The notes under the pieces were generated by a model. It saw only the letters and a program-made list of their open reading frames with translations. It did not search any database and was not told the DNA's origin. This document shows positions 2,906-62,179 of a stretch of 64,000 nt of DNA, piece after piece. Source of the stretch: Liolophura sinensis (Eukaryota > Mollusca > Polyplacophora > Chitonida > Chitonidae); NCBI RefSeq assembly GCF_032854445.1, contig NC_088300.1, positions 14,663,191 through 14,727,190 of the forward strand. Direction: 5' to 3'. A program made the translations under genes and the position numbers. Position 1 is the first letter of the stretch; each line of letters begins with the position of its first letter.

Positions 2906-2925
2906 CGTCGTCGTCGTCGTCGTCG

Positions 2926-4099: not shown

Positions 4100-4380
4100 C
4101 CACAGCGGGATAACTTCTTGACATGAAAACTGGGAGAAACATCTTATATCATAATTTGATGAAACCTTTTATATTGCAACGTTGGGGAAGTTACCTGGGG
4201 AAACGTCATATCACAACACGAGGACACTTTATATAGAAGCACTTGGAGAAACCTCTTTATATCACAACCGGAGGACATTTCTTGAATAAGTACCTGGGGA
4301 AACCTCTTTAGATCACAAACCGAGGGAACTTCTTATATAAGTACTTGGAGAAGGCTTTCCACAGCCCAAGGAAATATCTT
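4100..4380. repeat. Decayed tandem repeat, unit about 55 bp
   Basis: Five or so degenerate units share the pattern 'aagtacctggggaaacctc', 'tttatatcacaac', 'gaggacacttcttatat'. Units differ by many substitutions and small indels, so the array is old. Confidence 0.75.
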
Positions 4381-4983
4381 ATATTTTTACATGGTGGGAG
4401 CCTATCTTAAGAAAATATCTCATATCATGTTAGGCTTATATCATATTCACATCATAGGGATACGCAATGATTGTCAATCAAGCGTTCATAAGACAAAACA
4501 TGATTTTCGTAAAATTTTGGAGTTCCAACCCTTGCTGCCATGTATATGTAGGGAAACCCTTCTTGCAAAGTTTTATAACCAATGTCGGGTTATCGCTCGC
4601 ATAATGGATTCATCTCACGACCTCAGTGTAGATCAGAAATGAGACTGTAAGGTAGTTCAGTCAGTGAGGACGTTCACAAGTTCAAACTTGATACATGAGA
4701 TATTTTCACAATGCATTCCACTCATATTGTGAATGTACTTGCCAAAAGCACTTTCATGTTTGCAGAGGGTCCCCTTTCTGGGTTATTATTTCAGCTGAAA
4801 TAGAAAACTTTTCTTCCATCCTTAAATAACAGATGTGTACATGCTATGGTATTTTTATAACAGCATACATGAATATGACTTGGTCAATCGTGTTTGATAT
4901 TGTATTACTATGGGGATATCTTTCATAGGCTTATGGACCTGCCTGGTGATATCACATATGTTGTAAAGCCCAAAGGACGGACC

Positions 4984-12500: not shown

Positions 12501-14111
12501 ACCTACCAGGAATTGACAGCGGAGACGACTATGACTACAGATATACAAATTATTTGGTGCCCAGCAGTAGTATACTGAAGCCAGCAAGGAAAGTGCAGAG
12601 GTATTGAAGGTAAGCTTTTGGAACAAGACAGGGCTGTAATGTATACATAATCACAGCCATATAAAACTATCTGATACTGTACCTGTACATGTCTTCAGTT
12701 GTATATATGTAGTAGTATTCTGAAACTGTTTCTATTTCTTGAGTTCGATGCATGTGGTAATATTCCGGAGCTGTGACTTTCTATTTCTTCAGTTCTATGC
12801 AGTTAGCCGTATTCTGACAGCGTACCTTTATATTAATAGATTTGTATAGCAGGACTCAGACAGTGTACTTTCGTATTCCTTCACTGATAAAGTAATCTTC
12901 TAACACCGTCACTTTTTATTCCGTCAGTTGTAAAAGCAATCTTCTGAACGGTGTGTTTTTCTGTTCCTTCAGTTGGCAACGCCATGTGTCTGCAGCTATG
13001 GCAGGAGAAGGCCAACACGCCCATCCACGCGTTACATTTCGGTTTCGGTCTCGGTTCGGTCATCTCTCCTCAAGTCACCAGACCGTTCCTGTCTCTCATC
13101 GTAAGGAACGGAACACTGATGAACCCGAACTCCACTGAGCTAGAGGACCACGGATTAAACAGCACCTCCATGGTAGTTCTCAGACCGTCTCGTATCGAGA
13201 TACCTTACTTCATCGTCGGAGGTGTAGTGTTTCTCATGGGAATGGCGTTTGTTGCTTTCCAGTTTGTCTACACCTCTGGAAGACCTGGATCACCCGACGT
13301 GGATAACGAGGATGCCCAGACGACGTTATCCGACGTAAAAAGCATATTTTTCTCAAGATCCGCCAAACGTCTTGATGTCATCATCTTGACCCAAGTATTT
13401 TTCTTTTACTTTTTTCTGTACGGAGGCACCAATCCGGTGGACACTTTCCTCTTCACCTATGCCGTTGAGAGTGACTTGGGTTTCACGAAGGACGAGGCAG
13501 CCTACCTGGACTCGGCATATTGGGCGAGTTTCACGGTGGGACGCTTCATCTCAGCAGTCGTGGCACATTGGGTGTCTGTCAACTATATGATATTCTTTGA
13601 AGTATTCGCCTCCGCCGGGGTCTTGGCTTTTCTGTCTTTTAAAGCTGTTGAAACCAAGACACTGCTGTGGGTGTTCTCGTGTCTGTATTCGGCGGCGTCA
13701 GCGCCCCTGTTCCCTTCTGGCACCGCCTGGGCAGATCGTTACATCAAGGTATCCGGCATTATCATCGCTGTTTTCGATGTGGGCTTCGGGGTAGCCGGCT
13801 TCATATTTCAATCTTTGGCCGGTCACTTGTTTACGCGGTACAACCCAAACTCGTTGCTGTATTTAAGCTTAGGAAGTGCAGTGGTTTTATGCCTGCTTAT
13901 GATCTCCATGAAGCTCGTGGGTGGTTGCCAAGGTGATCGTCATCGGCGACAAAGATACCAGAATGAACAGGTCAAGAAGATGCGGGAGTTTACTCCCGTG
14001 CCAACATGGCGGACTCGTACAAAATTTAGGAATTGTCATATTCGAAAAGTAGGCTTTCTATATGCAGTAATCAATACTGCATGTGGAATATATGTAAACA
14101 TCGGTGTTTGA
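4984..14111 (+). CDS. MFSD4-like: MFSD4-like major facilitator sugar transporter (3 exons)
   Basis: Exons 4984-5037, 10177-10486 and 12973-14111 join in phase (0, then 1) with GT-AG borders and give 500 residues, close to the roughly 510 usual for MFSD4 proteins. The start sits in a strong context (accATGG). Residues 1-18 begin transmembrane helix 1. Helix 2 ends in GCLNDRF (68-74), the MFS helix 2-3 loop. The start of exon 3 reads LHFGFGLGSVISP, and later come GGTNPVDTFLFTYAV and FPSGTAWADRY, blocks typical of MFSD4A/MFSD4B (NaGLT1). About twelve hydrophobic segments are visible. Family knowledge: MFSD4B is a plasma-membrane sodium-dependent glucose/fructose transporter; the substrate here is inferred. 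The C-tail is basic and cytosolic. An AATAAA lies at 14322-14327. Intron 1 (5.1 kb) and intron 2 (2.5 kb) are loaded with repeats. Exon 1 rests on hydrophobicity, start context and phase, so it is less certain than the others. Confidence 0.85.
6105..7044 (+). mobile_element. Possible solo LTR of a Gypsy-type retrotransposon
   Basis: The segment begins TGTTA and ends TAACA, as many LTRs do. It has a TATA box (TATATAA, 6224-6230) followed by a GC-richer transcribed-looking region. Near the end 'atataaagcattgtttacattgt' resembles an LTR polyadenylation region. No primer-binding site or gag/pol follows, and no 5-bp target duplication is visible at these ends, so the borders are uncertain. It could instead be another promoter-bearing repeat. 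Confidence 0.35.
7553..10053. mobile_element. Foldback-type transposon, 2.5 kb, with long inverted arms
   Basis: The two ends are near-perfect inverted copies: the left end AGTAGTATAGTATGTTGCAA returns as its reverse complement at the right end, and similarity continues for hundreds of bases. The left arm is about 7553-8805 and the right arm about 9008-10053; a short unique centre of about 200 bp lies between. CATGTC occurs directly outside both ends (7547-7552 and 10054-10059), a 6-bp target-site duplication. Arms are built of internal subrepeats: 'ccaatgggtg' beside 'gcgccaaaa', AT-rich 'tataacattgtatag' tracts, and a 'gaggaggatgag' block. No transposase frame is present; the open frames inside are repeat shadows. 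This architecture matches foldback elements, which are non-autonomous. The element sits in intron 1 of the MFSD4-like gene. Confidence 0.85.
9460..9508. repeat. (CA)n microsatellite
   Basis: An (AC)n run with one interruption, inside the right arm of the foldback element. A shorter GT run (about 8313-8322) lies at the mirror position in the left arm, so the arms have diverged here. Confidence 0.9.
11070..11932. repeat. Minisatellite, 48-bp unit, about 18 copies
   Basis: The unit reads 'ttctgtgcatgtagcagtat' then 'tctgaacactgcctttctat' then 'ttcttcag'. Two versions alternate (agcag...cactg and agtag...cattg), suggesting a higher-order period. Because 48 is 16 codons, both strands stay open and give false proteins with 16-residue repeats. 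Each unit contains a branch-point-like CTGAAC, a pyrimidine tract and an AG. Confidence 0.95.
12690..12972 (+). repeat. Degenerate units of the 48-bp minisatellite ending at a 3' splice site
   Basis: Diverged units can be followed up to the exon: '...cagtattctgaaactg...', '...ctatttcttcagttctatg...', '...gcaatcttctgaacggtgtg', 'tttttctgttccttcag'. The last unit provides the splice acceptor of exon 3 of the MFSD4-like gene. Confidence 0.75.
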
Positions 14112-20100: not shown

Positions 20101-21509
20101 GCTTTGGTTAGGAGACTCCTCGGTCATTGCGTCTCGCTGGCGTGCTAACCACCTCGGCCCCGAATAATGGTTTGATGTACACATATATGCCATGAAGCTC
20201 GAAACAATATTCTGCAATTTTCAAAGTCATGTCAATACCATGGTCGGAAGATGGCAATAATGAATGCAGTCTCTTTTCACTCCCCCCCCCCCCCCCTCCC
20301 CGCTTCCCATCCCTGCCATAGGCAGAGGTCAAAACAAAACTCACCGAAGAAAAGCATGACGTCATTTACAGCTAGTCCTGTCATCAAAAGCTCGCCAATC
20401 TCGGATAACAGTCCAAACACACCAACGACATTTTCATGGACACATCGTGTGAGCGGCCGTAACAGCAGAAGCATACAGGAGACCTGTACAGTGGTTCCCA
20501 CAGCACTCCAAATGCCTAGTTTAACGGAGCGCCAGCAAAACGGGAAGCCCATCTGGAAAAGTGTACTTAAAACTCCTTTCCCTATCAGAACCATTTCTAA
20601 GAGGAGATAGGCTAGAAGTAGTAGCATAAGCTGAGGCCGCTTGTTTCCTTCCCTTGGCTTGATGTAAGTTTTAACGGTTGATGTCAGTCTATTGAAGCTC
20701 ATAATAGGATCGTCTGACGGTTCGACCGTTTCAGGTAAAAACAATACGACTAGAAATACGACCAACGTAAACAGCACAAGAGCAACCACCAATGGATAAA
20801 AAAATCCAGCCGCCCTGATAAAATACCCGGTTCCTAGGGATACAGCCGACGCACAGACTCCGTTGAGCGCCTGTACTATTGTTATCCGGAAAGTTCGTGT
20901 CTTTCCGGGCTCGGTTACGTCCGCCAAGTAGGCTAATGCCGCCACGAAGCACGTGCCAAACGATCCAAGGCAGCCATCCAGAAATCCGGCAATCAGTAAG
21001 ACATACAGAGGCCAGTTCAACTTTACGACCAGCATGGTTAGTAGCATCTTTATCATTGTTCCCACAGTAGGAATGACCATGCCCAACTTTCTACCCCGCG
21101 AATCTGTGATGGCCCCTATAACTAACGTGGAGAAGATTCCTGGAACAGCGTTTGAGAGGCCGATATAAAGAAGCCATTCAGCAGATTCCCGTTCTGCCAT
21201 TTCCTCAGCTTCCTGTTCCTCACTGGTGTTGTTGTAACAAGAGTTGCCTAGGCTGCTGGTTCCGTTGTGACTATGGCTGGCCCCTATTTCCCGTTTCTCG
21301 TCAAGCATTCGATGAAACAAATACTGCTGTATTGTCGGATAATATGACACAAGACCGGCGTACGTGACAACGACAATCAGCTCTAAAAGTCCGGTTCGAA
21401 CACGAACCCTTGGTTTAAATTCCCCGCCGCTAACAACAGACGGCGCCATCTTTGAATTAGTTGACTTCTGAGTTCCTTGAGCAAGTCTGTTGGAGGAGAA
21501 TGACATCAT
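17169..21509 (-). CDS. SLC46-like: SLC46-type transporter (proton-coupled folate transporter family), 4 exons
   Basis: Minus-strand exons 21509-20345, 18841-18758, 18158-18002 and 17283-17169 join in phase (1, 1, 2) with GT-AG borders and give 506 residues. I start at the MM pair at 21509; upstream in-frame residues look like 5' UTR or intron because a T-rich tract and AACAG precede it. Helix 1 is followed by a long extracellular loop with two N-glycosylation sequons (near residues 82 and 93) and two acidic stretches. The MFS loop motif TDSRGRK is at 135-141. Exon 2 reads SMIKSVSSLLVGPNEQG, and exon 3 has SSIQLICFTFGSSLFNTVY, blocks characteristic of SLC46A proteins. The C-tail is hydrophilic and acidic. 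Family knowledge: SLC46A1 carries folate with protons, and SLC46A2/A3 carry other organic or peptide-like solutes; which applies here is unknown. A polyadenylation signal (TTTATT on plus) lies at 16956-16961. Confidence 0.9.
17395..17830. repeat. Decayed short tandem repeat in the last intron of the SLC46-like gene
   Basis: Many loose copies of a unit of about 18 bp ('cggatgtgacagaatatg' and variants) fill 17395-17640 and resume at 17755-17830. A SINE 3' fragment (17668-17735, 'aaatattcttgagtatggcg') sits between the two blocks. Confidence 0.6.
19062..19231 (-). mobile_element. SINE, dominant family, 3' part
   Basis: Minus-strand copy: 'tggtgttttacgcagtactc', 'aagaatatttcacttatacg', 'atggcggccagcattaagg', then the 'gagcccgggggaaaccc' block. 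Lacks the tRNA head. Confidence 0.85.
19293..19583 (+). mobile_element. Dispersed repeat family B ('ggggtttaacgtcgtac')
   Basis: Contains 'gtttaacgtcgtacttaac', 'aatttttcagtcatatgacg', 'attatactgatacgggtcaa' and 'gtgacccgacccaggactga'. A related copy lies at 42965-43446 and shorter pieces near 47057 and 54490. It has no open frame and looks like a non-autonomous element. Confidence 0.75.
19805..20166 (-). mobile_element. SINE, dominant family, interrupted full-length copy
   Basis: The 3' end starts at 19805 (tttatttatttgattgg...) and the tRNA-like head ends at about 20166 ('gctaaccacctcggccccga', which is 'ggggccgaggtggttagc' on minus). About 130 bp of unrelated sequence at 19965-20100 lies inside it. 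Confidence 0.8.
20281..20299. repeat. Poly-C tract
   Basis: Sixteen C in a row within a C-rich run, in the SLC46-like intron just past the donor site. Reads as Gly in the unspliced minus frame. Confidence 0.9.
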
Positions 21510-24500
21510 GATATGAGTCACAAATACTGTTATAAATATGGAAGTATTTAAAACAAATTGAATCACGATTAAAACACCAGGTACAAGAAAAAAAACAACC
21601 TCATATTCCCATACACACAAAATCCAATAACATTTTTCGTTCACCTCCCAAAATAGAATATTTTTGTTACACCGAGATTATCACATTGGGGCTACAAGTC
21701 CAACAGAAATCATTCAACCACACCAAGTACCCCGGTATGAAGCCAAGGACGAACCTTCAGTCTTCACAGTGAATGACTGTAGACTTTGTCATATCCGAGA
21801 TCACTGCATTCAAAAAAAGAGTCAAACTCCGTTGAGGTTATGCCCTAAACTGGTTGTACCTTGAACCACAAGCTCTCGTAAAGCAGAGGTTTTTAGCATG
21901 GAACAGACAGGGAAAATTTTGATTGGATAACAAAAACCAAAATTATATATACATACATCTTTTAGTTTTCCTATCACCATGCAAACGCATATACATTGGA
22001 GTCATAATTTTGTATAGGCTCTCAAACAAGAAAATTCAGTAACTGTACAATTTTTACCCATGAACGTTTGTGTTAAATTTCCATGTTTATTTTCCATGTT
22101 TTACTAAAAGATATAATATAATAGATAACAGGGCAATGTCCAGTGCCTTCACTAGCACCCATGACTGGATGAAATGATAGTAGGTATAGAAGTCGGTTAA
22201 GGTCATCTTTGCGTTATCGCAGGATTCACAAAATGATGACAGGATGACGCAAGCGATGACACGGTGGCGCGAAGCCATGACAGAATAATATCTTGTCAAC
22301 GAAGCGATGACACGTTGGCGCGAAGTTATGACTGAATAATATCTTGTCAACGAAGTGATGACAAGGTGGCGCGAAGACAGAATAATATGTCCTCAGACCC
22401 ATATTAATTAGTCATAAGCGACCATGTTAACATTTTAGTGCTGTAACACAGTTCCAAACATTCCTGGGCCATTAAAGGATTAGTGTCCAGATTTAACTCC
22501 CGGTTCTTATTAAAAAAAACTATAACCTGTTTAAGCAGTATGTTGCCGCTTGGATTTCTGAGGAACATAATATTGACTTGTAACACACATGAGAGAAGCG
22601 GTCATCAGTTTTCAAGGATGGATTTTAACTTCAGGTTTAGATGTGTTAAGTAAAGCCTGTCACGGATAATCACACAGTAACCTGAAATGCGGGTGCATGT
22701 TTATAGGCCCTATAACGCGTGGCATGAATACGCACAGAGAGTTGTACACACCAACAAAATATGTCTGCCTGACCGGACATTATAATGAAGTATATATTTA
22801 CTCAGAAGATTGTAGACCTATATTCCAGACATTCGCCGTTTTACTTGAGTCTGTGTGCTTACGAAGGGAACGGGTATTAAAGTATTGCATGAATTGCATG
22901 GGTGTTTGTTTTCTTAACGGCCTCATACGTCCGAAATGGGCTTTGCTGACGTTCACAATTTACATATGGTGTGCAGGACTGTACGTCCTAAGCATGCATG
23001 TAGTCTGGTATTTTATTTCTGGTTATAATTTCTGGTTATCAGGAGTAGTTCTCCAAATATGCCCGATGCTGTTTATTTCCCTATACCAGAAATCCATTAT
23101 AATCTGTCACCTCGTCGCATGCTTGCCACTGCCTGGTGTGAGTGAAGTACCCGGACATGTCGGATGTCCGTGTACCTACCTTTCGAATTTCATGGAAATT
23201 TTGTGAGAACACCGGGATTTTGCTGACTGACTAGAGTTACATCTTTTGATTATTATTTATTTTGACGGTTGGGTCCCTATCTGCCAAATTATAGAAACAC
23301 ATAGAGTACATCATACAGTCAGCTTAACTGACAATTACACTCGTGTCAAACCCGCGAATACCATGCATAGTAATAAAAAATACGACAGGTTCTACCGCAT
23401 TCTGTCACCACCACTCGCAAAAATCCCGTGTAACGTGAGATCTCCGCAAGCACACGAATATCAGTTATTGACAGCACGCGTGTAAGAGATGTAGCTCACT
23501 TTTACATGTGTATAAACTACGTAGGGCCTACATATATACTGCTCTCTGCCTGCATAGCGTGGCACGTAACACTCAGAACTCGCTGTAAGTATGGTCTGTA
23601 CATGTGTGCCGACAACTTGGTGTTGCGCAGAATTGCTTAATCCTGCAGTTTTGTATGACGAGATTTCCCATTACGTAACGATATGAACTTTGGTGAAGGG
23701 GGAGAGAATTTGATCCAATAATGCCCGTCCACATGTTACATGTATGCATTTGTACGGGTCAGCAAAGGTTACATAGTATCCGTTGTGCTTGGACTCCTGT
23801 TACCTTCGACGCGTCAGACACGCCTCAGTGATATCAGCAACGCGATTTTATCGTAGACATTCACCTTACACTTTCATGAGTGTTGTGTTCTTGCCAAGCA
23901 TTAAGATGTATTTGTTTTGGACCTATTTGAGAATACATACTAAAATTTGACTCTTCAGGCAGTTCTTCAAATCGGGCCTCGAGACGGCCAACCCCACTGG
24001 CGTTTCTTTTATCACTCAGTCCAGGCTACGCCGTACTAGAAATTTCAGGTCTGAACAATTGATTAACACACCTTTTTATACTGCTATAGCCTATTTTACA
24101 TCAGACATAACATTTGACTCACCTCTTGTTCCATGCAGGCTGTAGCTATATGCAATCTTCACCTATAGTACTGGCATATATACACTTCTCCCGAATATTT
24201 CAACCTACTGCCCTATACCGATGATACTCGTCTGTGGACTTCCCTCGCTTAAATTGGGCCTTTGTTCATCTAACTACGGCAGCGGCAGTCCAATACGAGC
24301 AGATGTTTGTCTCGCTACTACAGCAAGTCAGGGGGCAAACAATGTGGACACACTTCGGCCACTGTCCACTACAGCTGTCTAGAATAAGCCTCATATAACC
24401 TGAATGGCCTATTCAGCCATTGGCGGAACCTCGATGTTCACACATTACGGCTGGATCACTGCGGTATGTTATTCAAATAGATGCGCTGTTTGCAACATAC

Positions 24501-33246: not shown

Positions 33247-36200
33247 AGTGAGAATGTCTTTGCTTTCTGTTACCGTCCTTTTTGTCAATGATCCTTCTCG
33301 TCTATGCTGGACAATGGGATCTACCTGAAAGTAAGTGTTTTTCTGTCAATTCTCCATCACATCTCGGGAACCAACTGTTCCCACATTTCATAACCAGATG
33401 AAACGTTGTAGCATAATGTTAAATGTCTAATTATCTGAACCTGCAGACCAAAATGGCGTATTGACCGTTTGTTATTTAGTTTATGCAATAAACGGGTACT
33501 TTTGAAATAAGATAATGGCCCTATACATTTAAAAGATCGAGTTCTTTTATCCTATACAGTGGTATATAGCTTTGTTACTACCGCACTGTGCTTACAAAAT
33601 GGAACTGGCTATCCCGGCGTCACGCTCAGCCAAGGATTACAATGCCATCGGTTGCTACTTGTATTGCTACTAGTGCTACATATTAAGCATGAATAATCAG
33701 AGGTTATGTAAATTTATGCTGTCCCTTTCAAATACTTAAAAATATATATACCAACAAATGTATGTGAGTCAGCGATTTCAAAATTCGAACGCCAACTTAA
33801 ACCTTTATTTCCACCATCGTACAAGCGAAATAGCCTTGAGTATTTTTGAGGTAAATATCAATCAAATAATTAAAATGTCATTCTGATTCTTATATTTTGG
33901 AACCGTACTTTCACATTGTTGTCTTCCCCGGAGTAAGTGTCTAAATAAGGCATCAAATCAAAAATGGTTTCATTGAGTGGGCTTCCATTGTTGAAATTTG
34001 ATCAATACACTCTCACGAGCTTAGGGATATGTCTATCTTCAGTCCAGATCAATAATGTCATTGAACAAAAATTATTGCGTTTACCCGAATTCTTTGCACC
34101 ACATGGCATTATCCCACATTTATTATCTTAAATTTTTATGTCATGCTCGCTTTGTACTCATCCTTGAAACAGAAAATTTTATTTCATTAGATTATGAGCC
34201 ATGCGTCATAAAGTCTCAGATAAACTTCTTATGGTGTCTTTTTAAACAGAAAAAAATCTTCAAAATGTATGAGGACAAACAGTGATAAACAGTTCTGAAT
34301 GCTCATTCGGTACATATTCCAGCTTTAGTGGCCACATGTGGCATTTTACAAGAGTATGTTCGAAATGAAATCTTTCAAAAATAAGCAAAACAGAATCCTG
34401 TCTTATTCTTCTTGAAAGCACTCTCAACCTTTTTGTTTATGTGGGAAAGTTTCACTGGTAAATGGCAAATTCGGGCGGAAGTGCTTTCTGATCAGATTAC
34501 TGTCGGTGGAAAACACAGATCTGTGGTGTGCTAAAGCCACGATGGTCTGGTTTGTAGGAGGAAGAAACCATAAACCGAGTCCATTGTAAACTACCGCCCT
34601 TCTCCCTGTAACCGACACACTTCCAGGCGGAGCTGTGATTTTCAGCATGGATGAGGTTTAGATCTATAATCTTTTCAATTTAACATCATGTTATGTTTTC
34701 GGAATGATGGAATAGAATAGATTGTTACCGTAGTGCAGCATAAGGTGAAATTATAAGATACCCCGTTGTACACCAAACAAACAGTACCCTGTTGGAATAG
34801 TGGAATGTCATCTTTAGCACAATAGTTTGTTGCAGTATAACACACACCACAGTCCATTCTGCCATAACTCAGTGTTCTATCGAATGAACGTACTGTATAT
34901 GTGTTTTTAGAGTATGATATGACGGACACAGTGTTGAAATTGAAATGAATCTATGTATTTACGTTACCAGTTGCCATAAATTGAATGTATATAAGACCTG
35001 CCTCGCTTTTAGTGTCGACATAACGAGGGCAAACAAATTTTCATACTCATCAAATCTGTTGAAACCTTAGGAGTCCACCATGAATTTCAAATTCTCGGTT
35101 GTCTTGTGATTCAGATTGCCCCGTGGACGACGTCTTGTGTGACCTCGCAATCCGTGAGAGTAACAAGAGACAGTGTTACGAACACCAGATGTCAACGCTT
35201 TGTTGTAACCGATGTAAATCTCTGAGAGATAACAGCAAAGTGGAGAGTAAGTGGATATATGGGTATTCTTAAATCATACCAAACTGGACAGTTTGATTGG
35301 ACAGTTTCAAACTGGACAGTTTGATTGGTATTTTACGTCGTATATAATCAGGATTTTCTGACTCTATGGCGGCAACCATGCTTATTTGTGGTCATGGTGG
35401 TGGGCATCGAGCAAAGTCACAAAATCCACCTAACACGGTAACATACCTAAAAATGACATCCATTGTATTTCACATATCATTGTTTGTGCAAACCAGGATC
35501 ACGTTTCGTTGCTATCCAGCACATGCTCTCCAACTGTGTGCTGGAGAAAGGTTTTACAGTTACATCGACCTGATTAATATCACCAATAACGGTCAACAGT
35601 TAACACCCGGCATGTAAACATTGAAGTTAAAACGTGGTATACAAACCAAATCTCAAACAAATATGGCGCCTCCACATTTGGGTTTTTTCTAACGAAGTAA
35701 CGTACATGAATGAGCCATCACGGCCATTAAATTCTGCGTCACCAGGTCACCTTGATTCCGAATATATGAGTCTTTATACTAATCGACACTATATGTTCAA
35801 TTAGATATGGTGCCACGCCAACATTCCTCACATTAATTTCATCATTTTGTTATGAAACTTTGTTTGGTGAAATTTCTTATCTACAGGACTTTCCTGAACC
35901 TTTTCGCCCGGCTGGGAACGGCTGTACTTACATATACATATTCAAACCATTTAAACATGATCAGTCCCAATAATTAATTGGCAGTATAGAGTGAGCCGGT
36001 GTTACCATATTCACAAGCCAAGAAAGTAATCCACGTTTGCATCAATAATTGTATGATCAGTCATTTCATATACTGATTTCTGTCCTGTTGTTATATGATC
36101 TGTCATTTCATATACTAATTCCTGTCCTGTTGTTATATGATCAGTCATTTCATATACTGATTTCTGTCCTGTTGTTATATGATCTGTCATTTCATATACT

Positions 36201-37036
36201 GATTTCTGTCCCAATGTTATATGATCTGTCATTTCATATACTGATTTCTGTCCTGTTGTTATATGATCTGTCATTTCATACACCGACTTCTGTCCTGCGG
36301 TTATATGAGCAATCATTTCATATACTGATTTCTGTCCAGCTGTTATATGATCAGTCATTTCATACACCGATTTCTGTCCTGTGGTTATATGATCAATCAT
36401 TTCATATACTGATTTCTGTCCTGTTGTTATATGATCTGTCATTTCATACACCGACTTCTGTCCTGTGGTTATATGATCAATCATTTCATATACTGATTTC
36501 TGTCCTGTTGTTACATGATCTGTCATTTCATATACTGATTTCTGTCCTGTTGTTATGTGATCAATCATTTCATATACTGATTTCTGTCCTGTTGTTATAT
36601 GATCTGTCATTTCATATACTGATTTCTGTCCTGTGGTTATGTGAGCAATCATTTCATATACTGATTTCTGTCCTGTTGTTATATGATCAGTCATTTCATA
36701 CACCGATTTTTGTCCTGTGGTTATATGATCAAACATTTTATATAATGATTTCCGTCCTGTTGTTATATGATCAGTCATTTCATAAACTGATTTCCGCTTT
36801 CAGCTTGCCCTTATGGAGATTACACCGATCACATTTCTGTCAGTAATGGAAATATAGTTACCTGTGACTTCATCAGAACTACGAATAACTGTGATTCTTG
36901 CCAATCCTCAAGACTAGGACGACAAAACTGCTGCAAGACGTGTGAGGAAGTGTGTGGGCCGGTACCGAGCAAGAGAAGCCATACTAATAGGCTCAGCGAC
37001 CTGATCAGAGAGCTCAAGAGTTTGATTGAGAAATAA
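33247..37036 (+). CDS. Small secreted protein with two PLAC-like Cys-rich modules
   Basis: Coding exons 33247-33330, 35115-35246 and 36804-37036 join in phase 1 each time with GT-AG borders. Exon 2 encodes C-x6-C-x11-C-x9-CC-x2-C, close to the six-cysteine PLAC module seen in papilin and ADAMTS-like extracellular proteins. Exon 3 encodes a second module with C-x9-CC-x2-C at its end plus extra cysteines, followed by a basic C-tail (PSKRSH, RELKSLIEK). Exon 1 should provide a signal peptide, but the frame that joins exon 2 starts only at ATG 33288-33290, leaving about seven hydrophobic residues. An earlier ATG (33254-33256) opens a hydrophobic stretch in another frame and stops at 33326-33328. 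From the second ATG the product is about 135 residues. AATAAA is at 37144-37149. The role is unknown; an extracellular matrix or secreted defence/shell-type protein is possible. ShK-like folds share a similar cysteine pattern, so the PLAC label is tentative. Confidence 0.7.
35247..36803 (+). other. Last intron of the PLAC-module gene
   Basis: It runs from GTAAGTGG to CGCTTTCAG. The first part holds a decayed minus SINE (about 35290-35410) beside a small local duplication of 'aaactggacagtttgattgg'. The second half is a 42-bp minisatellite that ends at the splice acceptor. Confidence 0.85.
36046..36795. repeat. Minisatellite, 42-bp unit, about 18 copies, abutting a 3' splice site
   Basis: Unit 'tgatcagtcatttcatatac' then 'tgatttctgtcctgttgtta' then 'ta'. 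Variants with 'cacc' + 'gacttctgtcctgtgg' alternate with the main type, giving an 84-bp higher-order pattern in places. 42 bp is 14 codons, so both strands stay open and give false repeat proteins. The last unit mutates into 'tgatttccgctttcag', the acceptor of the final exon. Confidence 0.96.
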
Positions 37037-50328: not shown

Positions 50329-53300
50329 TTACAATCTATCTAACAAATGAGCCTTCACAATATCATACTGAATATTCTCTGTCACCTTCGAGTCTTTTTT
50401 GTACTCTGGATGATTCAGGACAAGTTCTCGGATTCTCCGGGCTACAGTCGGACGCTCTCCTACAATACCAAAAGTGGACGAGATTGTGATACACCTCACA
50501 GAAAAGCAATATTTAATCACATATTGTTCAAACAAATCTCCATTGTATAATTAAAATATCTCTCTCAAAAAAATAAAGAAACAAATAAATAATCATTCAG
50601 TGACAAATGAAGAACGTACAAAAGAAAAGAACCGTTTAATCATTTCATTCATATTACGGAAGGTGTGGCTTTATCGACGGTGAATTATAGAAATAACAAA
50701 AAAGAAATTGGAATCGCTGAGTCCATTCTAGAAAAGATCACCAACACATATGATTTTGATTTTCATCCTATCAGAAGGTGCAGTCAGCCAATCAGCTGTA
50801 AGGACGTATCGACCACTCACCAGAAGCTGTTTGAGATATCATGTGCAGATAGCTATCAACTTTCTGTCTGACAGCCGTCTGAAGTATTCTTGTGTCCAGA
50901 AACTGGTGGACCAATGACAGCAGACCTGGGTTCATTGGCTGAAAACATGAAAACAAAAGCATTAAACAAGAAATAAAACATCAAAGTTTTAGCTTTTAGG
51001 AGTGTTTTTAAACTGAAACTTACCAAACATAGGCTATTGTCATTATATTTTTTTATAATATTCTCAGTTTCCCGGTGGTTTTATCAGACTGTGTCGTTTA
51101 CTATTTGTCGTGTATTGAAAATGACATACATTTTCAAAATCAAAGATAAAAATAATTCTTATTATTGATATCAAAACTTACCCGAGGAGATATACGTGTA
51201 ATTAAAAACATACAGGTTTTTCATTAACCTGTAATGCTTGGTTATGCTTAAAAAAATAAAATAATAATAAATAAACCTGTATCGAACAAAGAGGCGAATA
51301 TACATATTAACACACGTACGACCCAGAACTGGGCGCTTAGAGATGGTTACTTACACTCCCATTCACAATGTCGTCAATAGACATTTCCTCATACTTGGCA
51401 GAAGATGTTTTCGAGTCTGAAAGGTCAAATCACGTGGACTGTAAAGAGATTTGGTTTCGCAAGGTAATGGATAAGAATTGGTACGAATAAATTCATAATA
51501 TTATGTTCAAGAGTAAGTATTACGTAAATATATAACTCATATTATTTACAATGATGTGTTCTAAGGTAAGGTAATTTACCTATTGTTTGTTTTTAAATCA
51601 TAAATCCTAGACGTAATCACCCATTATCGCAAAAGATCTGGAAGAGATGCATTGAAACTTAGCAGTAGTCAAGTTGCTTAGACCTTTAAACACGAATTAA
51701 ATAACCATATGAAGTTAACTGATACATTACGTAGCAGCTTCTGCTTTTGTGAGGACCACACCCACGCTTCTAAACCTCGTCATTTACATATATTTCTAGA
51801 CTAGCTTCACAAAAAGTACTTCTCGAACATTTCAGTTTCAGGTAACCCTCTAAAGACCATGTTACAATGCCACCTATCTGAGGCTGACAACTTTCATCGG
51901 ATCTTTCTAGAAAGCAGTGCATTAATTTCAGAGAATTTAGGCTTCTTTTTGAGTGCAATTTCCGTTAGTCACCAAAAACGTTTCTCCGGAAGTGAAATGC
52001 CTTTCTCCTGACAGCATCTTGGCTCAAAGATCTCTGACAATTTTCGTGTACCTGGAATAAACACAACCAAACCGCATCTGAGACCAACACTATTCATGGT
52101 TACAATATTTGTGATATATGCATAAGGAATAACAATCCAGTCTTGGCACAAATTGTGGTAGAAGGTTGTAAACCGTATTGTTACTTGATATATCATATGA
52201 CCCGAAACGAATACGCATTTTGTTAAATAATGTAAATCAGGCATGGCTTGATAATGTAGTATGCTGCACGTCATTCCATCGATCACCAACAACATACTAC
52301 CTTTTCGACCTCCTGTTAAGAAGAGATTAATCTCAGCAATCCATTCCACGTTTACATGAATTGTCTGTGAGCTTACATGTCGTACTTTTGTATTTTCTAA
52401 ATATGTGTAAATGGCCAAAAATATCAGAAACAGATAAATCTATAAGCCTATAATTTATTCACCACTAACCTTTGACATTGAGATAAGAAAATTGAGAGAG
52501 AAGTGTCTGATGGTCCGTGTGAGGAGAAAGATAAATACCGCATAGGCGGCGTTCTCAGAATCTGTCGGCTGCACCTGATGAAAAGAACTGGAAATACTAA
52601 GACAAAAAAACTGTGAGCAAAGTGTTGTGATCAAGAATTACAGCCATTACTCGAGGTTATGGTATGAAATGAATCCGTACAGATATACATGTACGTGTGC
52701 TAACATTTCAGGTCTTTCAGTCATAAATGTTTTCTTGCCATACACGCTATGGCGGAAATTTGTTTTGAAACTAAGCACAATGCCCAAATAAAAATCAAAA
52801 TAGTCGTGCTTAGCAAACTTCTGGTCAGTTCTCTGTAATTCTTAAATTGTTTTTCGCTCATGAAGACGATTTGTATTTGAACAATTTTAACCTGGCATTC
52901 TTTAATATATTACGGCAGGATCATGCTATTTTATTTGACTTATACGACTGTGGCCAGCATTATGGTGGGAAGAAATCAGACAAAGCCCGGACGAAACTCA
53001 CGACCATCTGCAGGTTGCTGACTGACCTTCCTACTTACTACCACTGACAGGCGGAACTGAAACTGTCCCTTTAAAGACACATATACATGTACTTGTCACG
53101 GATTGGTTGATAGATTCATCAATAACGTTTCTTCTTGATTTTAAGAGTAAAAAAAAAAACTGATATCAACATAACACAGTAAAATGTTCAGAACTCACAG
53201 CCATTGGTCTGAACTCTACCCTCCATCCCAGTTTTCCGTCAGCTTGTGGGATCTTCAGACGGACATATGGCCACACAGTCGAGTTCATAGTCTAGGATAA

Positions 53301-56300
53301 CAAAGATTTAAATCCAAAGATTATAAGGTGAAACACTTTTTGTTTTAGAAGTTGGCTTTCCCAACAGCAGAAAGCGCAAGTCGTTTGCATAAGTACACAG
53401 GCATTTCAAATGATCACGAACTACATCGTTTAGGGTCTTTAAGTTTGAGAAGGAACAATAGTGAAGCGTATTAACATAAACAATTGTTAATCGTTAAATT
53501 GAAAGAATAGCCAAAAAATGCAACGGTTCAGACTGAACGTGACCTAAGAAAGTCTTGAAAATAAGACACTGATGTTTCCAAAACCGTTCAATTCATGTTC
53601 TTTGAAAAGCCGTGGAATGTTGCTTGTCAGTAAGACCTGACATGAGGATCATTAAAGTTCTCATAGTGACCTCAAATAGTTGTGTGCTGTCTTTCTCTTG
53701 GGTCATCATCTCATTTTCTTTCACGGCATAGAAGGCATGAGAAAACAAAATGGCAGTGTGCATCGCCATCCCCATGTCAATCCCTGGTTAAAACAGAGAA
53801 GGCAGAACATATTGTATCCCGTATACCGTAAGTATATGTGTGTAGGAACACTTCTATTACCTGAGAATAAACCTGCGGATGGCCGTGGGTTTCCAACGGG
53901 CTCTATGCGGCTTCCCTCCAGCAATGCTATAACGTACAAGTGAAATATTCTTGAGCATCGCGAAAAACACCAATCAAATAAATAAACAAATACTACGTCA
54001 TTACAGGGTTGCTAATTTTGATCTGGGGTCTCCATGGCTCGGTTGGTTAGCGCCATATCTCAGTTTAATGAACCAGGAGCCTCTCACCCATGCGATCGCT
54101 GTGAGTTCAAGTCCAGCTCATCCTGGCCTCCCTTTCCGGTACGTGGGAAGGTCTGTCAACAACCTGCAGATGATCGTGGGATTCCCCCGGGCTCCGCTCG
54201 GTTTCCTCCCACCACAATGCTGGCCGCCGTATATTTATTTTTGTTTGTTAAGCAATTCACATACCTTTTCTGACGCAAGTGTGATGGACTGGTGCATTGT
54301 AAACCAACTTAAGGTCATTATAGTGCTGGCCTTCATCGCTTAAGTACCAAGGGACCAGTCCAGATCGGGGCAACATATGTCTCACTTCACCATTCGCGTC
54401 AACCTGAAATACCAATAGGTCAACTGCATCAGTGAACACTACATAATTATGGTTACTTTACCTATCCTAAAATGTCTGTATGTACATATGTATGTTTGAG
54501 GTTTAACGTCATTCCTGATATGTCAGGATCTCTTGGCTACAGTTGCACTTAAAACTAGACAGGAAGCTCTGTCAGCAACCTTCTGATGACTGTGGACTGT
54601 CAGTTTTCATGGGCGGTATTCCCGGCTTAAACTAATGACTTTTGGCAAGTTAGTGACGAGCTCACGTACGTACATGCACACCGCATTGGTGGAAGTTTGC
54701 ACAAATGGCCACACAAGCGGCATCGACTGACTTTTGTCACCAAAGCCCCACGTGTAGTGAGAGCGGAGGAATCTACAAATCCCTAAACCTACGGTCGGGT
54801 TTTAACTCGCATTTAAACTCGCATTTAAATCGCATTTCCCGTGCGATTTCGATCGAAAGGCAAGCGCATCTATAATTTTAAGCCACGTACTCCTGAGATT
54901 GGTGAGGAAATAAAGAGGAAAAAGGCTTACCACAGGCTTTCTCTCCTCTTCTGTACGGTCATCCTGTGCCTGCAAAAGCATCCCTAACCGGGAATCGTTT
55001 TGTTTAACAAGTCCATAAGCCACTGGTGTTGCGACAGTAAGGCAAATCTAAAATAAAGAAAACGTTATTGCAGGAACAAGGATTCAAAATCTTGAAATTT
55101 CCCACGTTAGATTGACTATAGTACACGTGTACGCGTGTACCAAGGACCGCCTTTAAAAAGCTGCCCAGACTTGCGTTCTGTATGTTTATGCGCACCAAGA
55201 TCCCGCATTTGAATAGCCAGGCCCATGGCGACACTTTATATGTATACACATACAATGAATCCTTGTCGTCCTATGACTGAAAAATTGTTAAGTACGAAGT
55301 TAAACCGCAATCATTCATTCATTGTAACGTGCAACGGCAAATAGTTAACAAGATATCTCCGTGAAATGGAGAAACGCTTAAAATAAATGGGACCTAAGCT
55401 GTCTAGCCTGTTGTTCATTCCTGATTTTGCGATCATGTTTTGTGGGCAAACCGGTTTTATCCATGCATTGCAAGAGAACAAAGGTCATTTCCGTTTGGAC
55501 AAGAGTCGTCATTGCTAGGGAAAAGACTCACAGTTAAAGGCAAACATATACTGACATAAGCTATTTGCCTGATGAAAACTATTTAATAATGTTTAGGAAA
55601 ACAATTTCTTAAAAAAATAAAAATAAAAAAACTCTCAAAACATTGAAATTAGTGATGGCTTCTCCTGATCACATTGCGACCATTGGCGTCACATCATATC
55701 TTTGCCATATTGTTTTAATACACATATACTTCATGGACCGTGTAATGAACTACTGCAAGTTGAAAAAATATGGATATGACGCCATTGATATCTACCAGAA
55801 CCAAATAGACCACGTCGAATCCAATGCACTAAAAGCATTGAAAGTAGGAAAAAAATAAATGAAAAATGGAATTGTTTTTGCTGCACACTGTTTACTAATG
55901 GCCTTTCACGTGGCGTCTACTTCATTTTAATGCTTTCTTTGCGTTTAACGATAACATACCAGTACTGGGGAGAGAACAGCGAGTTGATCGTGTAGATATC
56001 TGGCTTCCTGTAAACTCTTGGCCTGAATGGTGACCTGAAGACCGCTACAGCTCGTTGCTATGGAAATACCACCTATGGTTACGTGATCTGAGTCACAGGA
56101 AGCGCCATTATTTCCATGGCAACTCTGGGTGTTTACGTCCTGGAATACTGCCAACACAACGTTTTAAGAGAAATCTGTCATTATTTCATGTTTTCCCCTT
56201 ACAAATGGACACAGTTGGAATGGCAGAAATTCTATATGCCCAAGTTAATAACTTGTCAAACGACACAGAAAGATGCCTATGAAACGGCTTAAGTTTTACA

Positions 56301-59300
56301 AACAGTTCATTTCCATCCACCTTCGCACATCGTTACATGTTCTTGCAAACCACAGATATTATGCAACTGTAAAAACACAGATTATTTGCATGCAAAAAAT
56401 TGGATAAATAATAATGAAGATGTATTTATTGATCAGTCGATACCATATTTACCTGACATATGAAATCCATACGGTTTCCCTGTCCTGTTTTTAATGCCAG
56501 TTGCAAGACGTCTGAAAATGGTAACAACTTATAACCAAATGGTTATTTTATACTTTTTTAAAGGTAAGACAGGTTATTAAATATTGTATATATATGAAGT
56601 CAAATTTAATTCATTTGAAGAGAAGAAAACAAGTCTCACATATATCGTCGGTTTGATTTGCTAGCCAGAGAGTTGTCAAATGAATTCCAATCTGTACTTT
56701 GCTTTATCCCATTAAGTTTGTCGTCCATTTCACGGCCGAGTCTGAAAATCAAACATTTATAATCCTTTAAAAAATTCTCTTTTGGTATAAAGTGTCGACC
56801 AACTATACATTATTTGCAGGAGCACATGACAAATCGTACCCTTCCTCCTAGATGTGGTAAACACATATAGTAAAATGAAGAAAGAAACACAGACATGTAT
56901 AACTCTGCCCATTATCAACTTATGACAACAGGTAATATATGATCTATTAAAAGTAAAGTTCGACTTGACTGAAAGTGGGAACGGTTACGACTTATCTGAA
57001 ATTGGGTACCGGTACAACTTATCTGAAGTAGGGTATCAGTACGACTTAGCTCAAGTTGGGTACGACTTGGCCTGCACGGGTACGAGTTTGCATGGGTTAA
57101 CCCTATCCCTATTTTAGTTCCTAAGATCATTTTACCATATCATTTTATCCAACATTCTGGCATTACCAAGCCATTGAGGATGCTAAAACATGAAGATAAT
57201 GTTTTTTTTCCAAACTGACGCAGCTCCTGTAAATTTGTTCGTAGGCTTCTGGTGGTTCAAATGGTTAAACCTATGGCAATGTATTGAGAGTTGTATTACG
57301 TTATAGATGATAACGACTGGCCACTGGATACGCTTTGACTGTACCAGAAATCACCATGAAACCAGAAATCTAGATACGTCTATGACTCAAAGAACTACAA
57401 GGGATTATATTAGTTGATCTTTTTCAATGAACTGTTGTTACTACATATTTAACAAGCAATAATTTCATTCATTATTTACCTGGATGTTTTAAGTTTTATT
57501 TTTGTCAAACGACGCCGTTAGTATTTTTCAGTATCAACCATTATTCTACAGATTAAAGTAAAATCGTAAGCACACGTCCCATATATTGCAAACAAAATGG
57601 CGATATAGCCAGGTTACCTTGGAAACGATGCCATCGTTAGAAGATAGGTATTTGGAGGCAGCAACGATTGTACTACTTTGCGTCTGTAAACGAGAAAAGC
57701 CTGAATGTTGGATAGCACCAAGGGTTCAACTATGGTTTAAATCTCATACATTTCTTTTCCTTTCTCACCCAGAAAGGCCAAGAATTATAAGCAAAACACC
57801 TTGCGATTATTGAACTGGAAAGCCCATCTTAGCTGACGTCTGGTATACGAATGTCTGTTTCGAAAAAATTCAAATAAATTCAAACAAAATCCACTGACAA
57901 TTATTTTAAATTATTTTCAAAAAAAAATCTCTCTATATTTTGCAAAAAAAAAAAGAAGAAAAAAAAAAACACTGAAAGATTGAAGACTATCCCAACCACA
58001 GACATATTTATACCTTTCTTCCATATTGTCTTCTACTGCTCCCAGATCTTCCAGTCTTCCACTATATGGTCGAGGCGGAATCGTCTCCAGTTGAAATTCG
58101 GAAAACTCCGGCATTATAAAGGGAGATAATCTGAAATCGACGCATGTGGCTCAATGTGTTTGTTGTAAATAGTCAATTCTAATTCATGGTAACATGTTAC
58201 TTCATTAACTAACCAGGAATACGAACTTTTAATGCACCAAAAATGAAAAAAACTGTTCTCATCATAAACTTTATGGTTAACATTAACCAAAAACAAAAAA
58301 CACCGAAATACACACACACATCAGGTTTTATGCCACTAAACACATACGTGTATAGTCTACGTAATTTCATCACTGAAAATTCACATATACATGTAAATCT
58401 ATAAACGCATTCGCAGAATGGACCTTGACATGAACTTTTTCAAGTAATGTGACGGCACCGATACCCTCTGGGTCTCTACAGACGACCGTAGAATTTAATA
58501 TTTTAAAATCGTTTTACTCGCTTGGAGAAACTGTAAAGAAATAAATCGAACTATTTCCTGGACAGTGTTGAATGGTCTTTCATCTGATATATACTTCATT
58601 TTAATGTTTTCTTTGCCTTTAATGTCGATCTCATGTAGTAAATTTACTTAAAAGCGCCTTATTGATCAACCGAAAATTATCATTTTTGATCCAGAGTGGC
58701 TTTTTGGTGGCTTATTACTAAGCATCAACCTCGTTTACGACCATGAAACGTTTATCAAGGCGTTTCGACCAATTTTTATACTTCTGACCCGGAATTTTAC
58801 AAAATTATGCTAGGACCTTGAAATTTGCACTTTCTTATGGTGCGTCCTTGGGGCCGATTCTCCACCTTACCATACAACGTCCTTTGGATAAATGATAGAG
58901 ACAGTGATGCATGCCGTGTAATAAAGACAAGGCAAAATCATCGCTGACTGACCTGATCATTGCAGAAATGACAGCCTTTTGAAGCCGACCATAATCTTTA
59001 ATAATCACATGACATGCAATAAACTGTTCCATTTTGCTCTATTGAGGAAAGGTCTTAAGCTATTAAAAATAGTGCACACCTGCCACCCAAAATGCAGTAA
59101 ACACTACTTCGTATTACTACCACACGTCGTTTAATTATTTATTATTTTCAGCATAGATCAATCCATGTTCACCTGAAGTAGTATGGGCGAAACAATTCGT
59201 GTTGAAAAAGAAGAAGAAAAACGAAAAAAAACGAAACTCAGACACCCAACGATGGCAGCGAAAAGATTTTGAGTTTGTCACCATTTTCTCTTTTTCTACA

Positions 59301-62179
59301 ACATTTTACGTCCTATTTAAGCAAAATGGTCGCTGGATGAGGCAAGCGATAACAGCCTGTTACCCCTATATGTCCCCACTTTTGGAACTTCCCATTAATG
59401 TGTCATTGTGAAGCATGTCTAATAAAAGTGCTGCCGTAATATGAAAATCTTTTCCTGATAAGCAAGCATTATGACTTAATGCAAAGGTCAGAGATAGAAT
59501 ACAGGCCATTTACATAAACAACGACAAGGTAAAACGACAAGCGCAAAATCAGTCAAGATCCATGTACTAGGCTTCGACGAAGAACGTGGAGGGTTATCTG
59601 ATACAGAAACAAAGCTCCTAATGAGAAAAATGAAGGAAAAAGACCCGCCACTTTGAAACAGCACGAAAACTGGTGATGTGTTATCTTGGTGCCGCAGGCG
59701 AATCCAACACATCATCAGTGAACTATGACACTTGTCAACGAAGTATATACAATGTCACAAAATAAAACTGCGTTACCTGACATAAACATACACCACATCA
59801 TATCTGTGCTATAATATTCCTTTATTTGTGATGTCATAGCGTTCAATTTTATTGTTTTCACAAGTACACTCTTGCGATCGCTATGAGTTGCAATCCAGCC
59901 CATGTTGGTTTATTCTCCAGTTGTACATGTGTTGGTCTGAAGGAAGCTGTGCATCGTCATGGGTTTCTCTCGGGCTTTTCCCGGTTTCCTCCCACCATAA
60001 TACTGGCCGCTGTCGTACACGTGAAATATTCTTGAGCGTAAAGCACAAATCAAAACAATAAATAAATAAGTCCACTCAGAAATGACATGCAATCGTGAAT
60101 GACTGGGGTTTGAGTTAATACTTCGACTTTTCATTACCAACATTCGAGTTTTATGCCCTTAATGGCAAACAGGGCAACATGAACGACAGATCTGTTAAAA
60201 TATTTGTAATAATAAAAATATTGTATTTCAGCTAAAATATAATATTTTTCAAGTGAACCATAATTGTGACTCTTATAGTGACATTTTTGTGAAGTTTGAT
60301 TTACTTCTTATCAGTAAAACTTAAGTGCTGGCCTTGGTCTTAAACGTGTCATTTAAAATTTCTTCTTTTCTTAAAATGCATTTTTTCAAACCAAATTTTA
60401 GGTTCAATGGAGTATACTATTTTCTCTAAGTCTCAAGACAATTTTTAGTTATTTTTCATGCAGACAATCAATGTGGATTCTATTTGCCTTTAAATATCTG
60501 TTCCTCAGTGCGTCCGTGACATAGCGCTATTTATAAGCAAACAACTGTGAATTACTCATTTTTTCGTGTACTGTATGGAGGTGCTGTATTACATGTAAGT
60601 TCTTCCATTCCAACACGTGATTTTCACACAGCACACCCCCTCTATACATTGACTGCAAAGTGTAGACCTATGTTAAAGCGAAATGCGCTGAAATACATGT
60701 AAAACTCGGGGAAGGAATCACCTTTATTACCTTACCCATTGGCCTGTGCTAGATTCCTGGCAAGTCGCAGAACGTGTGATGCGCACGGCAACAGGCTGGC
60801 TGACTTCTCTTCTTCATTGGTACTGACAGTCAGGTACTCAATCTGGTAAGTTAACAGTAAAGTTATTCTGGCTTAGCAAGCTTTCAGATAGATCACGTCA
60901 GTCTCCGCTCTAACACGATGTCTAAATAACTGCACGGCAGCCATAGTTAAATAAAGCGCAATAACGTAGCTTATTTGCCGCTCTGTTGTCCATGATTTGC
61001 GTCAATTCCCTTAAAGGATACGTGAAAAGATATTATAAAACATGTATAGAACATGGTATTTAGGAAAATACATAAGAAAGAAATACATATAAAAATACAT
61101 AAGAAATTTCAATGAAAAAATAATTTTCATTTTTGAGGAAATGATGCCATCGATGAACATATTGTGAACGCGGGGCTAGTTTAGCGCTCCCCAATTTGAG
61201 CCCCTCGAGTTGTTTTGACAGCTATCGCCGTTGACGTCAACACCAGCAGATTACTGAATTTCCGGATTGACCTCTGGGGCCTTAGGAAAACCTAGGTTAA
61301 AGCCAATTTTATGCCCCAAGGAGAAAGCCGAGAAGCTTTTTCGTACTTTTATGTTTTAAGCCACCTCGTATATACCGTACTGAGAAATGCAAATCGAGCG
61401 TTCCATGTATATTCTTTAATTTGTTAAACAAAAGATCGCAGTGTGGCGTTAATGCCCTAGCAACAGGAGGCCAGGATTTCATAGAAGCGCCCAAAATTTG
61501 AATGTAAAGTGGCATGATTGTCACTCTTGAAAATAGAGATGAGAAAACCCCGATACTTTACCTAAAATGGTGTCATTTCTCTCACTCTTTGTTATTGAAA
61601 TCAACACGGTTGTCTACACTATGACACTACATTTCGTTTTAAAATATCACCTCCCATAACCACAAGACTTGCGCAACATGCAGAAGAAAATTTCCTCAAC
61701 CATAAGCAATTTGTTTAAAGTTATTCCTGATGAATTAGTTCCTTTTCGTTATAAACAGAATCTAGATTTGCCTCTGCATTTCTGGATATGAATATTAACA
61801 AATCTATGTGTTCACCTCCTTGTTATCTTTAAACATATCTTATCTTTAAATAAGAAGACATAAGTATACAAAATATGTAACCATCATCTGATAATGCGTA
61901 TGATGGACGAGAGAAGTTACATGCATCGTTTAACATAACATAAACTCAATGCGCAAAGTCTAACAGTCTCCTTAAACAAGCCATTCATCGTGAATTGCTG
62001 GTGAAGAAAAGACTGGGTACTGCAAAAGATGAACAAAAGATGAAAATTACCTCATCGCCCCAAAGAAGGCCTTCGCTTTGAAGGTCCTTGTGTTTATGGT
62101 ATATGTAACAGAACTGCTCGACGGCATATTGCACGGCTCGCTCTGGGAGTAGGGCTGCGTCGTCGTCCGAACTCATCAT
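50329..62179 (-). CDS. GCLC-like: Diverged glutamate-cysteine ligase catalytic-subunit paralogue (15 exons)
   Basis: Minus-strand exons: 62179-62051, 60842-60736, 58130-58014, 56741-about 56662, 56511-56453, 56139-55960, 55047-54931, 54403-54265, 53783-53671, 53291-53199, 52574-52470, 52051-51973, 51416-51355, 50938-50821, 50459-50329. They give about 542 residues (human GCLC has 637). Family blocks appear in order: YIYHKHKD...WGDE (26-43), PEFSEFQLETIPPRPYSG, GLQVTIQA...EARYLHDQLA, DDRTEEER (253-260), GWRVEFRPM (369-377), DSENAAYAVF, MSIDDIVNG and TVARRIRELVLNHPEY near the end. GCLC joins glutamate and cysteine, the first step of glutathione synthesis. Changed here: EGTPGxPYGG became ETIPPRPYSG, the MGFGMGCC block became GISIATSC, and LAQHxAHLF is lost. 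A loop of about 35 residues is missing. Two junctions use weak donors: exon 4 (GC donor or frame break) and exon 9 (GAG|GTCACT, fixed by alignment). Activity is doubtful. Confidence 0.85.
52930..53045 (-). mobile_element. SINE fragment in an intron of the GCL-like gene
   Basis: 'ttatacgactgtggccagca', 'ttatggtgggaagaaatcag' and 'atctgcaggttgctgactga' match the middle and 3' part of the dominant family on the minus strand. Confidence 0.8.
53868..53992 (+). mobile_element. SINE 3' half
   Basis: 'aaacctgcggatggccgtgg', 'gtgaaatattcttgagcatc' and 'aacaccaatcaaataaataa' match the family 3' half. It lies between exons 8 and 9 of the GCL-like gene. Confidence 0.88.
54025..54232 (+). mobile_element. 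SINE with tRNA head, 3' end missing
   Basis: Head 'ggggtctccatggctcggtt' and 'gtgagttcaagtccagctca', body to 'accacaatgctggccgccgt'. It ends about 35 bp before exon 8 of the GCL-like gene, with the usual 3' end replaced by 'atatttatttttgttt'. Confidence 0.87.
56955..57100. repeat. Degenerate tandem repeat, unit about 28 bp
   Basis: About five units of 'ggtacgacttatctgaaatt' + 'gggtacc' with variants, in an intron of the GCL-like gene. Confidence 0.8.
57905..57975. repeat. Poly-A rich tract
   Basis: A-runs separated by single bases just past the donor of exon 3 of the GCL-like gene; reads as T-rich on the gene strand. Confidence 0.85.
58857..59035. repeat. Dispersed repeat shared with about 45953
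   Basis: 'ttggggccgattctccacct' + 'taccatacaacgtcctttgg' matches 'ttggggcggattccccgcgt' + 'taccataccaagtcctttga' at 45953-45992. The minus frame here is a shadow; it does not join the GCL-like exons, which splice in frame without it. Confidence 0.6.
59868..60068 (+). mobile_element. SINE, dominant family, head eroded
   Basis: 'gcgatcgctatgagttgcaa', 'gggtttctctcgggcttttc', 'cctcccaccataatactggc' and 'gaaatattcttgagcgtaaa' follow the consensus; tail (aaat)n is present. Confidence 0.85.

Follow-up and report, generated by a model that had tools for sequence, protein, structure and literature searches.

Animal genomes are, to our knowledge, described with one gene for GCLC, the catalytic subunit of glutamate-cysteine ligase (GCL), and glutathione synthesis is regarded as the sole task of this enzyme. 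The locus analyzed here raises the question whether a second, strongly diverged GCLC-like gene of the chiton Liolophura sinensis still encodes a selected protein, and which reaction this protein would catalyze. The gene is located on contig C6, in a stretch of 64,000 nucleotides which was analyzed as a whole and is referred to as the window.

Using spliced alignment and splice-site inspection, a GCLC homologue (hereafter the paralogue) with 16 exons was identified on the minus strand of the window, reaching from the ATG at position 62179 to the end of the TAA at position 50329 (Table 1). The outer limits are as originally predicted, but fifteen exons had been counted instead of 16. The frames had rightly been described as intact, although for 14 of 15 junctions only; in the model all 15 keep the frame and have GT-AG borders. 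The encoded protein consists of 573 residues, without internal stop codon and without frameshift. It matches PF03074 with 331.7 bits (cut-off 25) over profile positions 10-368 of 372, this being the sole Pfam family matched at an E-value of 0.001 or better. In a comparison with solved structures, yeast GCL (3ig5) was found with E = 1.1e-54; a single exon of the paralogue reached yeast GCL with an E-value of 0.6 only. The weakest part of the model is the N-terminus, for which the first ATG in exon 1 was taken as start. An upstream exon may have been missed, and the loss of the N-terminal MGLL described below may hinge on this.

Table 1. Exons of the paralogue and open reading frames with MFS matches, in positions of the window.
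Feature	Position	Strand	Remarks
Exon 1	62051..62179	-	Start ATG, ends with WGDE; donor gtaatt, end phase 0; canonical column
Exon 2	60736..60842	-	IEYLTV...; borders ag/gt, end phase 2
Exon 3	58014..58130	-	PEFSEFQLETIPPRPYSG...; E87 and E94 kept
Exon 4	57618..57683	-	RRKVVQ...ASFPR; 66 nt, canonical length
Exon 5	56640..56741	-	Strongly diverged
Exon 6	56453..56511	-	59 nt; length and phase as canonical
Exon 7	55960..56147	-	ISIATS in place of MGFGMG; LQVTIQ kept; 10 residues shorter
Exon 8	54934..55047	-	DSRLG...DDRTEEER
Exon 9	54265..54403	-	RSGLVPWYLS; Tyr at yeast position 362 lost; 139 nt, as canonical
Exon 10	53671..53783	-	AMHTAILFSHAF; IRDP lost; 113 nt, canonical length
Exon 11	53199..53291	-	GWRVEFRPM kept; 93 nt, canonical length
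Exon 12	52470..52574	-	ENAAYAVFIFLLTR; best conserved, 24/35; 105 nt, as canonical
Exon 13	51973..52051	-	End phase 1, as canonical
Exon 14	51355..51416	-	Gap of 17 residues relative to canonical where exons 13 and 14 meet
Exon 15	50821..50938	-	Splice-site model
Exon 16	50329..50459	-	Stop TAA
MFS ORF (PF07690)	10174-10533	+	19 bits (cut-off 33.4 not reached)
MFS ORF (PF07690)	12948-14108	+	43.6 bits
MFS ORF (PF07690)	20280-21677	-	42.5 bits

The window contains 352 ORFs of at least 55 amino acids, ten of which were scanned. Three of these match transporters of the major facilitator superfamily (MFS), in one case with a score under the cut-off; the other seven gave no match. Two further stretches (11032-11974 and 36014-36843) are open on both strands and have repeated translations of the NIAFLFLQFCACSSIL and QKSVYEMTDHITTG types; their appearance is that of minisatellites and not of protein-coding sequence.

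The phases of the 15 introns (0,2,2,2,2,1,0,0,1,0,0,0,1,0,1) are all common to the paralogue and the canonical GCLC gene of the same genome. Twelve of the 15 junctions lie in the same alignment column as in the canonical gene, and introns 2, 8, and 13 adjoin gaps. Exons 4, 6, 9, 10, 11, and 12 are of equal length in both genes. Shared phases and columns therefore indicate the duplication of an intron-bearing gene, and a retrotransposed copy is ruled out by these common introns.

Two introns of the paralogue, at about 59940-60010 and at 54107-54247 (both on the minus strand), contain a similar short stretch with GTGGGAGGAAACCGG as motif or translation, resembling a SINE-like element.

The canonical gene was found on contig C3 (10976308-11012064, plus strand), with 16 exons coding for 667 residues; a genome without a separate canonical GCLC had been named in the original prediction as a case against it, and this case is thereby excluded. 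The genome searched comprises 609,464,459 bases in 632 contigs, and the searches for copies were run exon by exon, so that weak matches may escape. With PF03074, 11 exon matches were obtained at two loci, seven on C3 and four on C6; with the paralogue as query there were 19 matches at the same two loci (16 on C6, three on C3). Further GCL copies or haplotigs were not found in these genome searches. The glutathione synthetase (GSS) family gave six matches at one locus on contig C9, human GCLM as query gave three at one locus on contig C13, and the search for the glutamine synthetase family gave one match. Since a separate canonical GCLC, GCLM, and GSS are present, the paralogue need not supply gamma-glutamylcysteine.

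In the same assembly, COX1 matches were located on contig C99 (seven, one of them partial, in 108,685 bases) and on C632 (one), those on C99 being spaced by about 15.5 kb. Contig C99 looks like the mitochondrial genome as a head-to-tail concatemer, which is probably an assembly artefact; by gene order, the COX1 frame and its surroundings fit a molluscan mitochondrion.

A scan of a genome-contig collection with the canonical protein gave no match to further GCL sequences, and a scan of this collection with the chiton-yeast alignment gave one locus. Two scans of a viral-contig collection for GCL sequences were without a match. A eukaryote-type GCL gene (L008) is located at 2501-5813 of JAIYDP010000418.1, which is filed under a Verrucomicrobiaceae MAG. 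It has 19 introns, most of 32-37 bases, in a spliced alignment allowing GT/GC-AG borders only, and its last exons are doubtful. The contig looks like eukaryotic contamination of the MAG bin.

The paralogue is identical to the canonical chiton protein at 196 of 566 positions (0.346), to human GCLC at 200 of 568 (0.352), and to yeast GCL at 169 of 563 (0.300), while canonical chiton and human GCLC share 398 of 629 (0.633). In a tree of five sequences, branch lengths of 1.79 and 0.35 substitutions per site were obtained for the paralogue and the canonical chiton gene, respectively; none of five topologies for the placement of the paralogue was rejected with these five sequences (AU 0.28 to 0.74). 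Between paralogue and canonical gene, the identities at the three codon positions are 0.464, 0.593, and 0.346 over 567 aligned codons. Where both genes encode the same amino acid, the identity at fourfold sites is 0.297 (74 sites), which is near saturation.

For comparison, the canonical coding sequence was left to drift neutrally in a simulation with substitutions only, using 60 runs per target identity. Drift to the amino-acid identity of 0.346 produced on average 21.4 stop codons (lowest value 10), whereas the paralogue has none, and left the three codon positions equally identical (0.61 to 0.62). Already at an identity of 0.55 a mean of 15.2 stops was reached, with 8 as the lowest value. 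Replacement in the paralogue is also somewhat more conservative, with a mean BLOSUM62 score at changed sites of -0.42 against -0.77 in the matched simulation. The lack of stops and the uneven identity of the codon positions, compared with the simulation, therefore speak for selection on the encoded protein through most of the gene's history. Judged from its sequence, the paralogue is an old duplicate on which purifying selection acted over the greater part of that time, and the original view of a diverged GCLC paralogue that is no simple pseudogene holds on account of the intact model, the constraint and the 15 of 15 shared intron phases. A pseudogene state for most of this history is ruled out by the stop simulation together with the intact 16-exon model. 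For the simulation and the tree, as well as for the clustering test given below, the canonical gene was used in an earlier model that deviates in the exon 13/14 loop and in the C-terminal tail.

Alternatively, the gene could have been disabled, or have begun to decay, only recently, being now unexpressed after selection over most of its history. This would agree with the very long branch and with some donors that look weak (gtcact, gttagt, gtgact). Against such decay stand the complete lack of stops and frameshifts and the GT-AG borders at every intron, and we consider it unlikely.

The blocks named in the original prediction are altered as described, with EGTPGKPYGG changed to ETIPPRPYSG, MGFGMGCSC to ISIATSCSG, RYDSIDSYLS to RSGLVPWYLS, and SQHIAHLFIRDP to AMHTAILFSHAF, while DDRTEEER and GWRVEFRPM persist. 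To call them nearly fixed in the family is appropriate for MGFGMG, which is identical in human, chiton, yeast, and L008, but too strong for the other three of the four blocks, where yeast has EATPASPYLN, RYSSVDLFLG, and LAKHFAHLY. The canonical block MGFGMGCSCLQVTFQ reads ISIATSCSGLQVTIQ in the paralogue, for which it is diagnostic. All six residues of MGFGMG are changed, and RYDSID, HLFIRDP, and the N-terminal MGLL are lost as well. The loss of a loop of about 35 residues was not confirmed: exon 5 (34 residues) exists, though it can hardly be recognized, with 4 of 34 residues identical to the canonical protein, and the largest internal gap measures 17 residues. Compared with the canonical protein, length is lost in this gap at exon 13/14, in exon 7 (10 residues), and in the C-terminal tail.

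In chiton, human, and yeast, 236 columns are identical, and the paralogue keeps 120 of them (120 of 235 with the earlier canonical model). When L008 is added, 180 columns are identical, of which 103 are kept and 77 are changed or missing, both with the earlier and with the corrected canonical model. The losses are clustered, the agreement between neighbouring invariant columns being 110, where 20,000 shuffles gave 90.9 (s.d. 6.6; P 0.0026). In windows of 25 canonical residues holding invariant columns, those kept amount to 1/8 (residues 1-25), 6/6 (26-50), 4/4 (51-75), 2/3 (76-100), 8/10 (101-125), 5/5 (126-150), 1/6 (151-175), 5/13 (176-200), 2/4 (201-225), 0/11 (226-250, with MGFGMG), 10/13 (251-275), 5/9 (276-300), 3/8 (301-325), 4/8 (326-350), 3/4 (351-375), 0/6 (376-400, with HLFIRDP), 10/16 (401-425), 13/15 (426-450), 5/6 (451-475), 1/3 (476-500), 2/2 (501-525), 0/2 (526-550), 9/12 (551-575), and 4/6 (576-600), where the windows stressed here were picked post hoc and the clustering test is free of this choice.

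Yeast E50, E52, E96, E103, R313, E470, and R472, which we take from the yeast structures to be ligands of the metal, ATP, and glutamate, are all identical in the paralogue. The designation as altered catalytic blocks thus applies to the surroundings of the blocks, which are changed, but not to the presumed ligand glutamates and arginines inside them, which are all kept. The probability of keeping seven of seven is 0.008 measured against the three-way invariant columns and 0.018 against the 180 four-way columns. It rises to 0.12 when residues are matched by type (Glu, 9 of 11 kept; Arg, 12 of 18 kept), and for this reason the kept ligands are a hint and not a proof. Near the cysteine site, where yeast Y362 and C266 are presumably located, Y362 is replaced by Ser and C266 (human C249) by Gly. 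Among the human positions R127, H370, P414, and P158, which we take to be sites of disease mutations, the first three are kept, and P158 is Met in the paralogue and Ile in yeast. A review of inborn errors gave no hit for these four mutations, and nothing on active-site residues emerged from the literature searched. The position of human Cys553, presumably the disulphide site to GCLM, is occupied by Gln516 in the paralogue, by Cys550 in the canonical chiton protein (first model), and by Glu in yeast.

These residues bear on two alternatives. The paralogue could be a non-catalytic, GCLC-like pseudoenzyme, which would modulate the synthesis of glutathione while bound to the canonical subunit or to a different partner. 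This would agree with the change or loss of 77 of the 180 four-way invariant columns, including the whole of MGFGMG, with the glycine in place of the yeast C266 cysteine, and with the branch about which the tree reports 1.79 against 0.35 substitutions per site. The seven kept ligands speak against it, though not significantly when matched by residue type, as does the Gln at the Cys553 position in a genome which does have a GCLM locus; on balance a pseudoenzyme is rather unlikely. Alternatively, the paralogue could still be a gamma-glutamylcysteine synthetase, specialized by tissue, stage, or regulation, e.g., no longer responding to glutathione or not requiring GCLM. Membership in PF03074, the complete set of presumed ligands, and the lost Cys553 position would suit such an enzyme, but the clustered loss of columns identical in the human, yeast, canonical chiton, and L008 GCLs makes it distinctly unlikely.

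The reading preferred here is that of a gamma-glutamyl ligase, ATP-dependent and altered in its acceptor, which we propose tentatively and with somewhat less than an even chance of being right. The lost segments (MGFGMG, the exons 5-6 loop, and IRDP) are presumably located near the substrate pocket, and an altered acceptor is suggested because the losses concentrate in the MGFGMG segment, the exons 5-6 loop, and the IRDP segment. As an ancient duplicate of the GCL catalytic subunit still encoding a full-length protein, the ligase would depend on ATP and Mg, with the kept glutamates and arginines holding the metal, ATP, and glutamate. The gamma-carboxylate of glutamate would be phosphorylated and then attacked by an amine, and the acceptor, perhaps also the exact fit of glutamate, would differ from that of GCL. 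We infer catalytic activity, glutamate as donor, and an acceptor other than cysteine. A selected full-length protein in which the residues of the chemistry are kept and clustered segments are rebuilt is what can be expected of a ligase with a new acceptor; it is compatible with a pseudoenzyme too, since the argument from the kept ligands is weak once the residue type is counted. The 77 changed or missing invariant columns, including all six of MGFGMG, count against the proposed ligase as well, and an active GCL may need MGFGMG. According to the part of PMC6508711 available, gamma-Glu-Val is made by yeast Gsh1p, and a shift of the acceptor would therefore be chemically near.

No report of such a GCLC paralogue in molluscs was found in a thin search of the literature. 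If the proposed ligase is real, the acceptor of GCL would have been changed in nature, in an old and selected single-copy paralogue whose pocket was rebuilt, and this paralogue would be a concrete candidate for molluscan gamma-glutamyl compounds without a known enzyme.

Among known systems, GCLC (PF03074; yeast GCL, PDB 3ig5/3ig8/3lvv/3lvw) is the closest, with full-length homology, the intron phases, and the presumed ligands common to both. The paralogue differs from it in lacking MGFGMG, RYDSID, HLFIRDP, and MGLL and in its shorter exon 7, exon 13/14 region, and C-terminus, and from the subunit of the animal GCL holoenzyme in lacking a cysteine at the human Cys553 position.

In glutamine synthetase and the Pup ligase PafA, gamma-glutamyl-amine ligases of the superfamily to which GCL belongs, a glutamate carboxylate is phosphorylated and an amine attacks subsequently. 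These enzymes resemble the paralogue in the expected chemistry but are not close to it in sequence, PF03074 being its only Pfam match at an E-value of 0.001 or better. The superfamily is named in PMC8599861, a paper on Dop.

The gamma-glutamylation of monoamines in molluscs was described in the 1980s (PMC4472778 and PMC6454038, each as partial text). In the nervous tissue of Aplysia such conjugation seems to replace monoamine oxidase, and gastropods differ from cephalopods and bivalves in it (PMC6454038, excerpt, with no mention of chitons). A gamma-glutamylhistamine synthetase of Aplysia goes back to Stein and Weinreich (1983), as cited in the available portion of PMC4472778, and no gene or sequence for the gamma-glutamyl-monoamine ligase of Aplysia was found in the literature searched. 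The synthetase couples glutamate to an amine in a mollusc, and it is linked to the chiton paralogue by the kind of reaction only; connecting the paralogue with monoamine conjugation of the Aplysia type would be a guess by analogy. That the paralogue might belong to an unrecognized molluscan group of GCL-derived ligases, which would gamma-glutamylate monoamines such as histamine and dopamine and thereby inactivate them, is a long shot.

In plant-parasitic nematodes, duplicated glutathione-synthetase-like enzymes with changed activity were described (PMC5919673, in the part of the text available). They concern another enzyme of the pathway, another lineage, and a large gene family, whereas one extra copy was found in the chiton, but they show by precedent that a gene of the glutathione pathway can be duplicated and change its activity.
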